Shown here one piece after another: positions 4,886 to 63,196 of a DNA stretch of 64,000 nucleotides. The translations under genes and the position numbers were made by a program. Under the pieces are notes generated by a model. That model had not been told where the DNA came from and ran no database searches. It worked only from the letters and a program-made list of their open reading frames with translations. How positions within the stretch are numbered: position 1 is the stretch's first letter; each line of letters starts with the position of its first letter. Source of the stretch: Sipunculus nudus (taxonomy: Eukaryota > Annelida > Sipuncula > Golfingiida > Sipunculidae); assembly GCA_026874595.1 (NCBI GenBank), contig CM049309.1:29453033-29517032 (forward strand), written 5' to 3'.

Positions 4886-5310
4886 AACCAGATTAATGAA
4901 GGTGGCACCACTAATTGCAATTTCAAATATGAGTCATGTGACCAACATTTGCACAAAGCTTGGTGTTGCTAGCTCCTGTCGTTTATGAGATTGTAATGTC
5001 AGTATACTTACTTGGAGAAATCACTAAGTTCAAATTCCTGTAACTCAGCCAAAATTCATCAATCCTAGACCTTTGAACAAACTTAAGAGAGCTTATTAAG
5101 TTCTAAGAGTTTGTAAGGTTTTTTTTTTTAATTTATCCCTATAAAATTCAGATAGCAAACAATAGGCAAAATCCGATAGAGTATTTTAGATGACTGATTT
5201 TTTGCATAAAGTTTGGTGATCTTAGCTCCTGCCATTTTCGAGATAGAATGGGTTAATGTACAGATGACGCATGATGCCACAACATCACACCAGCTCACAG
5301 GTTCGCTAAA
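4886..5310 (+). repeat. CACAGGTTCGCTAA-ended repeat copy
   Basis: This is a near full copy, from gaaggtggcaccac to cacaggttcgctaaa at 5310. It is colinear with 57795-58250 and with the two copies at the window start. Confidence 0.75.
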
Positions 5311-5466
5311 AATTCCAGTTTTGAAATTTCAACTAATTTTGGCGGATATGATAAGAAGTTTCTAGATCCTACTGATACAATTTGTGCAAATTTGATTTAT
5401 TGGGTGCTCAAACTATGTTCTTTCATATACAGAATAAGTCACAGTAACCTTATTTCAGATTGGCAT

Positions 5467-5900
5467 GACACTTGACTGGTGACTGTGATTGACAGGTTCT
5501 TACCTTGACTGGTAGCTGTGATTGACAGGTTCTTACCTTGACTGGTGACTGTGATTGACAGGTTCTTACCTTGACTGGTGGCTGTGATTGACAGGTTCTT
5601 ACCTTGATTGGTGACTGTGATTGACAGGTTCTTACCTTGACTGGTGGCTGTGATTGACAGGTTCTTAACTTGACTGGTGGCTGTGATTGACAGGTTCTTA
5701 CCTTGACTAGTGGCTGTGATTGACAGGTTCTTACCTTGCCTGGCGGCTGTGATTGACAGGTTCTTACCTTGACTGGTGGCTGTGATTGACAGGTTCTTAC
5801 CTTGACTGGTGACTGTGATTGACAGGTTCTTACCTTGACTGGTGGCTGTGATTGACAGGTTCTTACCTTGACTTGTGGCTGTGATTGACAGGTTCTTACC
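5467..5900 (-). repeat. 33-bp tandem array built on a TPR 5' splice site
   Basis: About 13 full units of 33 bp plus a partial one follow the end of the last TPR exon in the window. Each unit on the minus strand holds CCAGTCAAG, the donor-like GTAAGAACC, then CTGTCAATCACAG, so the exon end and intron start have been copied together. One unit (near 5671) reads GTTAAG and has lost the donor GT, and the last partial unit reads AAGTGTCA. Because 33 is a multiple of three and the units have no stop, the array continues the exon's frame as an 11-residue repeat (QPPVKVRTCQS and variants) to a stop at about 5450. Whether it is spliced out or sometimes translated cannot be told from sequence. Confidence 0.9.
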
Positions 5901-6330
5901 TTGACTGGTGGCTGTGAAGCTGCTGTAGTTGCAGACTGCTGCTGCATCTCTACCTCCTGTCTGACTTCAGCCCGAATTTGCTGTAGGGGAGAGGTGAGCT
6001 GTGAAAAGCTTCCTCTTGGAACTTTGGCTTCCTGAGGCTGTCCAGTGGCTGTATCAGCCTCTAAAGACAGTGGTTCCTTGGGCACTGGCTGTATCTCCAC
6101 TTCTTGAAGCCTTGATCTTTTCTGCTGTGGATGCTCTTCCTCTGATTTCACTACCACACTCTCTTCCTCTCTCTGTCGTTTTGATGCTTGCAGTCCAGAA
6201 GGCCCTGGCTCAGGTGCTGGGGCAGCTGAAGTATCTTGTTCTGGTTCTGTGTGAGGAGATAGTGGCTGGACTTGTTGGCGAGGTCGACTGGCAGTCTGTG
6301 CAGCAGACACACTGACAGTGGTAGCAGTTG
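5900..6330 (-). CDS. TPR: TPR nuclear basket protein, tail exon with basic NLS-like segment (most 3' exon in window)
   Basis: The exon runs from acceptor TTGTTTTAG|CA to donor GTCAAG|GTAAGA. Its first two bases complete an Ala codon split with the 18119-17893 exon, and it ends in phase 0 (143 codons; residues 364-506 of the part visible here). It is a low-complexity tail: Pro/Glu/Ser-rich, then SKRQREEE and QQKRSRLQ about 20 residues apart, then Gln-rich ending ASQPPVK. The two basic clusters sit where vertebrate TPR has its nuclear localisation region, of similar make-up (KRTREEE ... PKKLK), so I infer an NLS. The donor is the first of a row of near-identical donors in the 33-bp array. If that array were read through, about 150 extra residues and a stop would replace the acidic tail. 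The next exon is outside the window. Confidence 0.85.
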
Positions 6331-6840: not shown

Positions 6841-7400
6841 AAACAAGTGGTCCCTGGGCCACGATGCTCAGCTGAATTCAATGAACCTTGAACAGTGGGA
6901 AACATGACTCCCAGCATGCTCAAATCATGCATTTTGCCACAGACCTTAGATATAGGTTACAATGACCATATACTACATCCAGCTGCTACCATTTGTTCCT
7001 ATCTGACCAATAAAAAGATATAATCATGTTCTTTCACACAGTTTGCAGTACATAGGTCACAGTGACATTATTTCAGGTTTCCAAGAAATTGTTTTCAGGA
7101 ACCTCCCTGATCTTAATAAAGTTAGAAGTTTCAAGGTACAACTGTATTAAATCATGCAAATCTGTCCCATAGGGTGCTCAAATCATGTTCATTTACATAT
7201 TTTGCAGAATATAGGTCACTGTTACCTAATTTCAGGTTTCCAAGGAGATTTTTCATGGACCTTCCAGGATGTAAAGTTAGAAGATTCCAGGTCCAACAGT
7301 TACGATTTGTGCCCTGTTAACTCACAGACAGACATACAAAGTACAAAGAGTGATCACTATAGCTCAGATGACTTTCAGTCAGCTGAGCTAATGATTGTAG
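6841..7400 (+). mobile_element. Short hairpin-ended (HINE-like) element, both ends present
   Basis: It starts with aaacaagtggtccctgggcc and gctcagctga, and ends with agctcagatgact ttc agtcagctgagctaa, an almost perfect hairpin at 7369-7397. The interior holds the ggtcac-tgacctaatttcagg / gattctaggtcca module also present at 18788-22365 and 27690-28940. At about 560 bp it is one of the shortest copies with both ends. It has no coding capacity. Confidence 0.7.
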
Positions 7401-42535: not shown

Positions 42536-42563
42536 ATTAATCACTCAGTTTACACTAACCCTT

Positions 42564-42786
42564 GTGACTCATCTCTCTCCTATTTGTCAGTCTATTGTGA
42601 CCCTGGTGACTCACCTCTCTCCTATTTGTCAGTCTATTGTGACCCTGGTGACTCACTTCTATCCTCTTAGTCAGTCCTTTGTGACCCTAGTGACTCACCT
42701 CTCTCTTCATAGTCAAAGCCTAATGTGACCCTTGTGACTCACCTCTCTCTTCATAGTCAAAGCCTAATGTGACCCTGGGGACTCAC
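42564..42786 (-). repeat. 42-44-bp tandem copies of a TPR exon/intron boundary
   Basis: Five units lie immediately downstream (minus strand) of the 42966-42787 exon, starting near 42564, 42606, 42648, 42690 and 42734. On the minus strand each reads CTGACNAANAGGANAGANGTGAGTCAC or a close variant. This is a copy of the exon end CTGACCAAGAGGAGAGAG plus its donor GTGAGTC. Four units keep GTGAGT; the most distal has ATGAGT. The plus-strand reading frame here is only a shadow of the repeat. Confidence 0.88.
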
Positions 42787-42966
42787 CTCTCTCCTCTTGG
42801 TCAGCTCCTCCTCAGCCTTCTTGGTCCTGGCTTCCTCCTGTTGTACTCTCTTAGCTGCTTCAGTTTTCTCGGCATATGCAGACCCAAGTTGTTCTGATAT
42901 GTCATCTCTGCTCTTCTCTAGCACTTTCATTCTACTTTTCAGCTGTTCAACTTCATTTTGGGCTCC
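42787..42966 (-). CDS. TPR: TPR nuclear basket protein, coiled-coil exon
   Basis: The exon runs from acceptor TTATTACAG|GGA to donor GAGAGAG|GTGAGT. It is 180 bases, phase 0 at both ends (residues 71-130). GAQNEVEQLKSRMKVLEKSR then AAKRVQQEEARTKKAEEELTK is a highly charged, uninterrupted coiled coil with no Pro and one Gly after the first residue. It lies between the KYKSKSEE block and the KLQEELTK block and fills the expected part of the TPR rod. On its own it would look like any coiled coil. The intron-proximal end has been tandemly duplicated, so several equivalent donors follow the true one. Confidence 0.9.
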
Positions 42967-52794: not shown

Positions 52795-54036
52795 CAGTTA
52801 CCACCTCACAGGAGCATCATATATAATTCAGTGTACTGGTTATTCAGTTTTTCAGGTGATAGAGAAGTATTATATGTAATTCAGTCTACTAATTATTCAG
52901 CATTTCAGGTGGTAGAGGAGTATTATAAGTAATTCAGTGTACTAATTATTCAGCATTTCAGGTGGTAGAGGAGTATTATATGTAATTCACTGTACTAATT
53001 ATTGAGCACTTTAGGTGGTCGTATTATACGTAATTCAGTGTACTAATTATTAAGCATTTCAGGTGGTAGAGGAGTACCTAATTCAGTGTACTAATTATTC
53101 AGCATTTCAGGTGGAAGAGGAGTATTATATGTAATTCAGTGTACTAATTATTCAGCATTTCAGGTGGTAGAGGAGTATTATATGTAATTCAGTGTACTAA
53201 TTATTCAGCATTTCAGGTGGTAGAGGAGTATTATACGTAATTCAGTGTACTAATTATTCAGCATTTCAGGTGGTAGAGGAGTATTTTATGTAATTCAGTG
53301 TACTAATTATTCAGCATTTAAGGTGGAAGAGGAGTATTATATGTTATTCACTGTACTAATTACTGAGCACTTCAGGTGGTAGAGAAGTATAATACCTAAT
53401 TCATTGTACTAATTATTGAGCACTTCAGGTGGTAGAGGAGTATTATATGTAATTCAGTGTACTAATTATTCAGCATTTCAGGTGGTAGAGGAGTATTATA
53501 CGTAATTCAGTGTACTAATTATTCAGCATTTCAGGTGGTAGAGGAGTATTTTATGTAATTCAGTGTACTAATTATTCAGCATTTAAGGTGGTAGAGGAGT
53601 ATTATATGTAATTATGTGTACTAATTATTCAGCATTTCAGGTGGTAGAGGAGTATTATACCTAATTCAGTGTACTAATTATTCAGCATTTCAGGTGGTAG
53701 AGGAGTATTATATGAAATTCAGTGTACAAATTATTCAGCATTTCAGGTCGTAGAGGAGTATTATATGTAATTCAGTGTACTAATTATTCAGCATTTCAGG
53801 TGGTAGAGGAGTATAATACCTAATTCAGTGTACTTATTATTCAGCATTTCAGGTGGTAGAGGAGTATTAAACCTAATTCAGTGTACTAATTATTCAACAT
53901 TTCAGGTGGTAGAGGAGTATTATATGTAATTCAGTGTACTAATAATTCAGCATTTCAGGTGGTAGAGGAGTATGATATGTAATTTAGTGTACTAATTATT
54001 CAGCATTTTATGTAGTACACAAGTATCATATGTAAT
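52795..54036 (-). repeat. 53-bp minisatellite ending at a TPR splice donor
   Basis: About 23 units of 53 bp; each contains attcagtgtactaattattc and catttcaggtggtagagg on plus. Edge units are more diverged. Units starting near 53139, 53192, 53245 and 53298 carry the same variants as those at 53404, 53457, 53510 and 53563, so a 5-unit (265 bp) block was duplicated. A further partial unit (attcagtgtacgttatt) abuts the donor of the 54490-54359 exon, separated from the array only by the inserted element at 54038-54338. Confidence 0.92.
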
Positions 54037-60889: not shown

Positions 60890-62910
60890 GGTGGTTGCGG
60901 TGTCATAAATATGACTGTACACCTGTCACAGCATGGGATCCATCCCCAGTGAACCACTGTCTGGGGTCAGGTGGGGGTTTGATATGAGAATAACTGTACA
61001 CATGTTACAGCAGGGGATCCATCCCCAGTGAACCACTGTCTGGGGTCAGGTGGGGGTTTGATATGAGAATAACTGTACACTGTTACAGCAGGGGATCCAT
61101 CCCCAGTGAACCACTGTCTGGGGTCAGGTGGGGGTTTGACACGAGAATAACTGTACACCTATTACAGCAGGGGATCCATCCCCAGTGAACCACTGTCTGG
61201 GGTCAGGTGGGGGTTTGATATGAGAATAACTGTACACCTGTTACAGCAGGGGATCCATCCCCAGTGAACCACTGTCTAGAGTCAGGTGGGGGTTTGACAC
61301 GAGAATAACTGTACACCTGTTACAGCAGGGGATCCATCCCCAGTGAACCACTGTCTGGGGTCAGGTGGGGGTTTGATATGAGAATAACTGTACACCTGTT
61401 ACAGCATGGGATCCATCCCCAGTGAACCACTGTCTGGGGTCAGGTGGGGGTTTGATATGAGAATAACTGTACACCTGTTACAGCAGGGGATCCATCCCCA
61501 GTGAACCACTGTCTGGGGTCAGGTGGGGGTTTGATATGAGAATAACTGTACACATGTTACAGCAGGGGATCCATCCCCAGTGAACCACTGTCTGGGGTCA
61601 GGTGGGGGTTTGATATGAGAATAACTGTACACCTGTTACAGCAGGGGATCCATCCCCAGTGAACCACTGTCTGGGGTCAGGTGGGGGTTTGACACGAGAA
61701 TAACTGTACACCTGTTACAGCAGGGGATCCATCCCCAGTGAACCACTGTCTAGGGTCAGGTGGGGGTTTGACACGAGAATAACTGTACACCTGTTACAGC
61801 AGGGGATCCATCCCCAGTGAACCACTGTCTGGGGTCAGGTGGGGGTTTGATATGAGAATAACTGTACACATGTTACAGCAGGGGATCCATCCCCAGTGAA
61901 CCACTGTCTGGGGTCAGGTGGGGGTTTGATATGAGAATAACTGTACACCTGTTACAGCAGGGGATCCATCCCCAGTGAACCACTGTCTAGGGTCAGGTGG
62001 GGGTTTGATATGAGAATAACTGTACACCTGTTACAGCATGGGATCCATCCCCAGTGAACCACTGTCTGGGGTCAGGTGGGGGTTTGATATGAGAATAACT
62101 GTACACCTGTTACAGCAGGGGATCCATCCCCAGTGAACCACTGTCTGGGGTCAGGTGGGGGTTTGATATGAGAATAACTGTACACCTGTTACAGCAGGGG
62201 ATCCATCCCCAGTGAACCACTGTCTAGGGTCAGGTGGGGGTTTGATATGAGAATAACTGTACACCTGTTACAGCATGGGATCCATCCCCAGTGAACCACT
62301 GTCTGGGGTCAGGTGGGGGTTTGATATGAGAATAACTGTACACCTGTTACAGCAGGGGATCCATCCCCAGTGAACCACTGTCTGGGGTCAGGTGGGGGTT
62401 TGATATGAGAATAACTGTACACCTGTTACAGCATGGGATCCATCCCCAGTGAACCACTGTCTGGGGTCAGGTGGGGGTTTGATATGAGAATAACTGTACA
62501 CCTGTTACAGCAGGGGATCCATCCCCAGTGAACCACTGTCTGGGGTCAGGTGGGGGTTTGATATGAGAATAACTGTACACCTGTTACAGCATGGGATCCA
62601 TCCCCAGTGAACCACTGTCTGGGGTCAGGTGGGGGTTTGATATGAGAATAACTGTACACCTGTTACAGCAGGGGATCCATCCCCAGTGAACCACTGTCTG
62701 GGGTCAGGTGGAGGTTTAATATGAGAATAACTGTACACCTGTTACAGCAGGGGATCCATCCCCAGTGAACCACTGTCTGGGGTCAGGTGGGGGTTTGATA
62801 TGAGAATAACTGTACACCTGTTACAGCAGGGGATCCATCCCCAGTGAACCACTGTCTAGGGTCAGGTGGGGGTTTGACACGAGAATAACTGTACACCTGT
62901 TACAGCAGGC
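60890..62910 (+). repeat. 79-bp minisatellite, about 25 units
   Basis: Each unit holds gggtcaggtgggggtttga, gagaataactgtacacctgt, the near-palindrome ggggatccatcccc, and cagtgaaccactgtct. Units differ at a few linked places (tatg or cacg; cagg or catg; ctgggg or ctaggg). These variants alternate in pairs and triplets, so the array grew partly by 2- and 3-unit blocks. One unit (about 61040) is shortened at gtacac-tgttac. The seed is the gagaataactgtacacctgtcacagcag block that follows poly-G tracts elsewhere. Confidence 0.95.
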
Positions 62911-63196
62911 GATCTCCCCAAGTGACCTGTTACAAATCAGGTACCCTGGCATAGCTTACTGGAAGTGACCAGAAGTGGCCTGCCTGTAGCTGGACATTAT
63001 GCAAGTGAATACATAGAGCCTCTGAAAAAAAAATTCAATAACTTGCCTTATTTTTAAGCTTTTCTTTTCAAATTAAAAAATTTAACAGATTTATTCAGAT
63101 TAACTGATGGACAGACAAATGGCACTATGGACAGACAGCTGACAGACAATGGACCATCGCTATAGCTCAGCTTACTTATAGTCAGCAGAGCTAAAA
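62911..63196 (+). repeat. Hairpin-family tail downstream of the 79-bp array
   Basis: After the array come the ccctggcatagc / agtgacc block, a short 3' module, and a degenerate terminal hairpin (agctcagcttact / agtcagcagagct) at about 63164-63192. Confidence 0.65.

Follow-up and report, generated by a model that had tools for sequence, protein, structure and literature searches.

The window, meaning the whole stretch of 64,000 nucleotides analysed here, carries on its minus strand an exon of a TPR-like gene whose 3' end has been amplified into a tandem array. The features at this exon end are the following (a slash in a motif marks the splice boundary).

5900-6330, minus strand: exon of the TPR-like gene, defined by the acceptor TTTTAG/CA, translation and coordinates; it ends in CCAGTCAAG, with a donor in phase 0
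5471-5917, minus strand: 33-bp array with the unit TCACAGCCACCAGTCAAG/GTAAGAACCTGTCAA, covering the exon end and running on into the intron (TRF, units listed)
5894-5899, minus strand: exon-proximal donor with the letters GTAAGA, probably the 5' splice site in use, judging from five sister arrays
5663-5668, minus strand: lost donor in a unit with CAAG/TTAAGA (GT to TT), the sole loss among 13 donor positions
5450-5452, minus strand: TAA that would end the frame if the array were read through, with an AATAAA then at 5401-5396

TRF describes the array with a period of 33, 13.5 copies, 94% matches and a score of 817, and such an array exceeds chance. A sequence-only reading of this DNA had proposed that an exon–intron boundary is amplified about 13 times, which the 13.5 copies on a real exon end bear out. 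It had placed the array at 5450-5900; the array itself is real, while TRF corrects its coordinates to 5471-5917. The unit combines the terminal 18 bases of the exon with 15 intronic bases; it had been described as the boundary with some 20 bases of intron. GTAAGA stands directly after the exon end, the first GT lying at 5899-5898, and donor positions then recur once per 33 bases down to 5503. CAAG/GTAAGA is intact at 12 of these 13 positions, so that the remark that nearly every unit retains GTAAGA was correct; in the partial last unit (5470) the donor is lost. The 12 intact donors share the same letters from -4 to +6, and each leaves the reading frame open. Past the exon this frame is open for 149 codons (292 minus 143 residues), up to the TAA at 5452-5450, in agreement with the earlier observation that the array is in phase with the exon and stop-free until about 5450. 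There are eight distinct changes between units, all in unit positions 7-19, and the other positions are invariant across the 13 full units. A search of the 1.43-Gb assembly with the array, by a method that skips simple repeats, returned four other matches of 65-72% identity and no closer copy.

Intronic polyadenylation after read-through, at the AATAAA at 5401, was considered and set aside; the 9.2-kb intron after the array holds five AATAAA motifs, and the one at 5401 is unremarkable. The sequence just past the array (5200-5460) resembles, by eye, dispersed repeat copies upstream in introns (6900-7330), and the terminal TAA and the AATAAA sit within this repeat-like stretch, a likeness likewise judged by eye.

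The gene is likely TPR. A long coiled coil is followed by an acidic tail, with coiled-coil exons upstream and acidic exons downstream, ordered on the minus strand, and the C-terminal exons resemble the C-terminal part of human TPR. This order agrees with the identification as TPR made from the sequence; the Pfam evidence falls short of it, as TPR_MLP1_2 (PF07926) matches two collinear pieces upstream, on the right strand, at E-values of 0.3 and 0.5, which do not reach the cut-off set for the family. One exon of the gene scores 15.7 bits against this model. The model has 50 matches in the genome, the best of them elsewhere than in this gene, and it also matches in 8 of the 14 prokaryote genomes used as controls. 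With exon 6330-5900 itself as query, neither Pfam nor PDB returned a match. The gene continues past the array: the next candidate exon, encoding acidic tail, lies 9,248 bases downstream, outside the window, and is preceded by an AG in phase 0 that matches the phase-0 donor of exon 6330-5900.

The array is not alone in its gene. TRF was run on 174 kb of the gene region (C4:29403033-29577032), and arrays with a period of 20-100 and at least 2.9 copies were counted. Six of the 13 such arrays span a splice junction (6 of 20 once longer periods are included), four at donors and two at acceptors, and all six contain letters of their own exon. Besides the 33-bp array these are, in window coordinates, the following; negative numbers lie before the first position of the window.

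42558-42805, minus strand: 42-bp donor array of 5.8 copies with GAGAGAG/GTGAGT, at the end of coiled-coil exon 42966-42787
42787-42966, minus strand: coiled-coil exon, its end amplified in the 42-bp array
-11590 to -10899: 43-bp acceptor array
-21790 to -18517: 69-bp acceptor array
-32654 to -32292: 38-bp donor array
-48764 to beyond -49999: 36-bp donor array

Junction spanning was not seen in the other seven arrays of period 20-100 in the gene, two of which (arrays A and J) are near an exon, and the seven arrays of period 143 or more were not found to overlap any exon. Long arrays also occur in the window at 60914-62914 (79 bp, 25 copies) and 52810-54036 (53 bp, 23 copies), with no junction spanning seen.

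A second sample was chosen without regard to repeats: Pfam models were used to locate 77 exons of dynein, covering 76,320 bases, and 37 of myosin, covering 37,727 bases. For dynein, 77 of 93 matches were used, namely those inside 20 regions. For myosin, 37 regions centred on matches were taken out of 75; matches inside very long open frames, overlaps with regions already taken and the weaker rest were left out. Five of the nine arrays counted here (period at least 20, at least 2.9 copies) span a junction, so that five of about 228 junctions bear an array, the latter number assuming two junctions per exon match. Two are donor arrays (L043 and L086) and three are acceptor arrays (L049, L050 and L059). 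The sample also yielded some observations of detail. In L049 (2505-4165) a dynein exon is flanked on one side by an array of its acceptor (56 bp, 18 copies) and on the other by a 22-bp array of 23 copies that starts just inside its donor. At 587-742 of L088, a single duplication of 83 bp (1.9 copies) covers the end of a myosin exon together with its donor; the second donor has decayed, and the duplication is perhaps an early stage of such arrays. Further, at G000:C2:44849337-44852248 the myosin head model matches four times in about 3 kb at near-identical model positions (about 109-153); these repeats resemble clusters of alternative exons, and two of the four are flagged with a 2,288-residue open frame.

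The explanation that we favour with fair confidence is that the 33-bp array is a splice-junction minisatellite of the kind called a 'mirage', an exon-end duplication that expanded into the intron, with the exon-proximal donor used most of the time and an open frame that is not selected. A short segment straddling the exon end of the TPR-like gene would have been duplicated in tandem and then expanded through slippage or unequal exchange. Growth would have been directed into the intron, so that additional units leave with the spliced-out intron. The exon-proximal donor would splice most transcripts, and the other 11 intact donors would be near-identical intronic decoys. The open 11-residue frame would be a by-product of the unit length of 33 bp and of the lack of stops in the intronic bases, rather than a protein repeat under selection. 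Since many arrays in this genome, this one included, lie on a donor or an acceptor and repeat letters of the adjoining exon, junctions would be either preferred origins of tandem duplications or the places where these survive best.

Junctions bear arrays more often than random seeding would predict. In the dynein and myosin sample the five junction arrays out of nine compare with 0.87 expected (P about 6e-4). In the TPR-like gene, with the given array left out, five of 12 compare with 0.35 expected (P about 1e-5) in a model with 102 junctions, a figure based on how many exons human TPR has; assuming 200 junctions, again without the given array, gives P 3e-4. When longer periods are counted, the comparison for this gene becomes five of 19 against 1.4 expected (P 0.008). 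Splice junctions may thus be favoured birthplaces of tandem repeats. In a stronger form, junctions would be hot spots of tandem-repeat birth, with the donor or acceptor arrayed at about 2% of them, a rate several times that under random seeding; birth would be tied to splice-site sequence or to co-transcriptional splicing, and the arrays would form a standing supply of spare sites for new introns or exons. We advance this form tentatively and would rate it at rather less than even, its chances being reduced by the longer-period arrays in the TPR-like gene.

The same recurrence could arise with no link to splicing. If duplications are commoner in or near exons, which are richer in GC, those internal to an exon would be purged, and those straddling a junction would survive with their extra units spliced out. 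Exon 6330-5900 has 52% GC in a window of 36% GC. Further, several arrays (A, J, the 22-bp array of L049, a 28-bp array of L050, and L030) have an exon at a distance of about 110 bases or less but do not span its junction, so that proximity to exons, rather than the splice site as such, may be responsible. Against this, in the dynein and myosin exons arrays that span a junction are more numerous than those only close to one (five of nine, small numbers). This account comes very near to an even chance and falls just short of it.

Which of the repeated sites are used bears on a further alternative, in which the array is a multi-donor coding minisatellite and alternative donors give rise to TPR forms with varying numbers, up to 12, of an 11-residue repeat. 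The 12 intact donors are identical, in frame and without a stop until 5450, and a precedent is claimed for a human interferon-induced gene (IFI6). Because every intact donor leaves the frame open, the donors may compete and the use of several would be tolerated here, and forms differing by 11 residues are possible at this array. The sister arrays speak against it. Among the sites that match the chosen motif, counting array K within 1,400 bases and leaving out units with decayed sites, none of 93 alternative sites across the five sister arrays preserves the frame: later donors fail in arrays D (0/4, one without GT), H (0/5) and K (0/26), and earlier acceptors fail in arrays F (0/15) and G (0/43). 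As none of these sites keeps the frame, the exon-proximal site must carry productive splicing in all five. By analogy, the donor at 5899 is probably the working site of the 33-bp array, and the earlier proposal of a dozen equivalent donors, or of partial translation of the array, is not supported as a general mechanism.

The repeat peptide shows no sign of selection either. The eight distinct changes between units comprise one synonymous and seven nonsynonymous changes, where neutrality predicts 0.27 and 0.67 of changes, and they give no sign of purifying selection. A coding repeat under selection was set aside, with only these eight changes to judge from. With seven of the eight unit changes predicted to alter a residue, the open frame looks accidental. 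By simple reckoning, five intronic codons are free of stops in roughly four cases out of five. Since 33 divides by three and stop-free runs of five intronic codons are common, an in-frame array is unremarkable, and one among the six in this gene is no surprise. Human internal tandem repeats at exon–intron boundaries are reported to be able to yield alternative splicing patterns (PMC2812944), which favours the use of several donors, and amphioxus arrays reportedly leave splicing undisturbed (PMC3087553), which does not. On balance we consider the multi-donor alternative unlikely.

An introner-like element, mobile or dispersed and inserting at splice sites, would account for the recurrence at many junctions. 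We regard it as highly improbable: unit lengths vary between 22 and 77 bp, each unit carries letters of its own exon, three of 55 unit pairs from 11 junction arrays beat 60 shuffles where about one is expected, and in the search that skips simple repeats the 33-bp array matched nothing else at more than 72%. The arrays presumably arose independently.

Splice-junction minisatellites of the favoured kind have been described in amphioxus as 'mirages', with reported unit lengths of 10 to 160 bp, regular splicing, and length instability at Adh3 and a globin gene (PMC3087553, PMC3902484). Several features are shared. Tandem units there combine exonic with adjacent intronic sequence (here 18 + 15 bases), many units retain AG/GT signals (here 12 of 13 donors are intact), the arrays lie at real exons and span a donor or an acceptor, and both 5' and 3' boundaries are affected (here four donor and two acceptor arrays in one gene, with others elsewhere). 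The loss of frame in the sister arrays points towards the same undisturbed, regular splicing. The present case differs in that a TPR-like gene in a 1.43-Gb genome has six arrays and a per-junction rate is estimated. Further, length instability and undisturbed splicing are reported for amphioxus, while here the arrays are known from the sequence of one assembly. The 33-bp array therefore belongs to an already known kind, and its frequency is the part worth following.

Earlier reports concern single junction-spanning minisatellites from amphioxus and human genes. A 1995 paper in Nucleic Acids Res. is said, by its title, to describe a minisatellite that gives rise to multiple splice donors in a human interferon-induced transcript. 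Judged by that title, a donor is repeated there as it is here, the donors being used in the human transcript and putative in the present array; the human unit reportedly also leaves the exon frame open, like the 33-bp unit. Variable internal tandem repeats with an average unit of 30 bp have been reported at exon–intron boundaries of recently duplicated human genes (PMC2812944). They too are minisatellite units at boundaries and able to change splicing, and they come from 27 intron modifications among young human paralogues, in contrast to the conserved genes found here (among them dynein, myosin, DOCK and IDE). Tandem GYNGYN donors are likewise repeated donors at one exon end (PMC1779574); as described there, they lie a few bases apart and form no minisatellite, unlike the 33-bp array.

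We found no report of genome-wide junction arrays with a per-junction rate in the open-licence literature, which is weak evidence of absence. A genome in which junction arrays are common in ordinary conserved genes would be a natural experiment: at many exons, donors or acceptors of almost the same sequence would compete, and the choice of the spliceosome among equal sites could be read off RNA. If the host is not a cephalochordate, the trait is wider than reported; if it is one, a known trait of that group is extended. Searches for GFP and for mollusc haemocyanin gave no match anywhere and are uninformative on this point, and a myosin exon scores about equally against the myosin chains 3i5f (squid, 194.1 bits) and 8zbn (vertebrate, 193 bits). 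The findings also bear on the origin of tandem repeats and on the birth of introns through duplication of AG/GT boundaries, which has been discussed as a source of new introns (PMC3087553).

The frequency of such arrays was approached genome-wide by counting motif triples at a spacing of 22-52 bases, a count that gives long arrays more weight. The donor core AGGTAAG yielded 2,781 triples against 1,100 for the reversed motif. The dinucleotide-matched control AGTAAGG yielded 1,742, and its own reverse 1,305, so that the donor excess over this control is only 1.6-fold. The acceptor core TTTTCAGG yielded 1,273 triples against 216 reversed. Three of the six donor arrays among the matches listed, all on C1, abut a coding-like exon: L015 (SLC22, with weak PDB support), and L016 and L017, recognised by eye with no family-level Pfam match. 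Half of the eight acceptor arrays among the matches listed, on C1-C3, do so too, two with database-supported exons (L020, MMS19; L021, DOCK) and two by eye (L023 and L024, neither with a Pfam match and L024 with no PDB match); L025 is longer than the stretch fetched. No exon was seen at the other three donor arrays (L012, L013 and L014) or at the acceptor arrays L018, L019 and L022. Among the nine AGTAAGG 'control' arrays in the matches listed, seven show no exon by eye, L030 abuts a coiled-coil exon with the donor not clearly included, and L038 is itself a donor array, on an exon of insulin-degrading enzyme (IDE). For DOCK, MMS19 and IDE the PDB alignment reaches the residue adjoining the arrayed site, where the queries were cut; homology thus extends up to the junction, without showing that it ends there. 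In L012 (C1:1647500-1649200, the array starting from C1:1645403) the period is 30 bp, and in many units three bases separate a T-rich, acceptor-like ATAG from a donor-like GTAAG that follows it.
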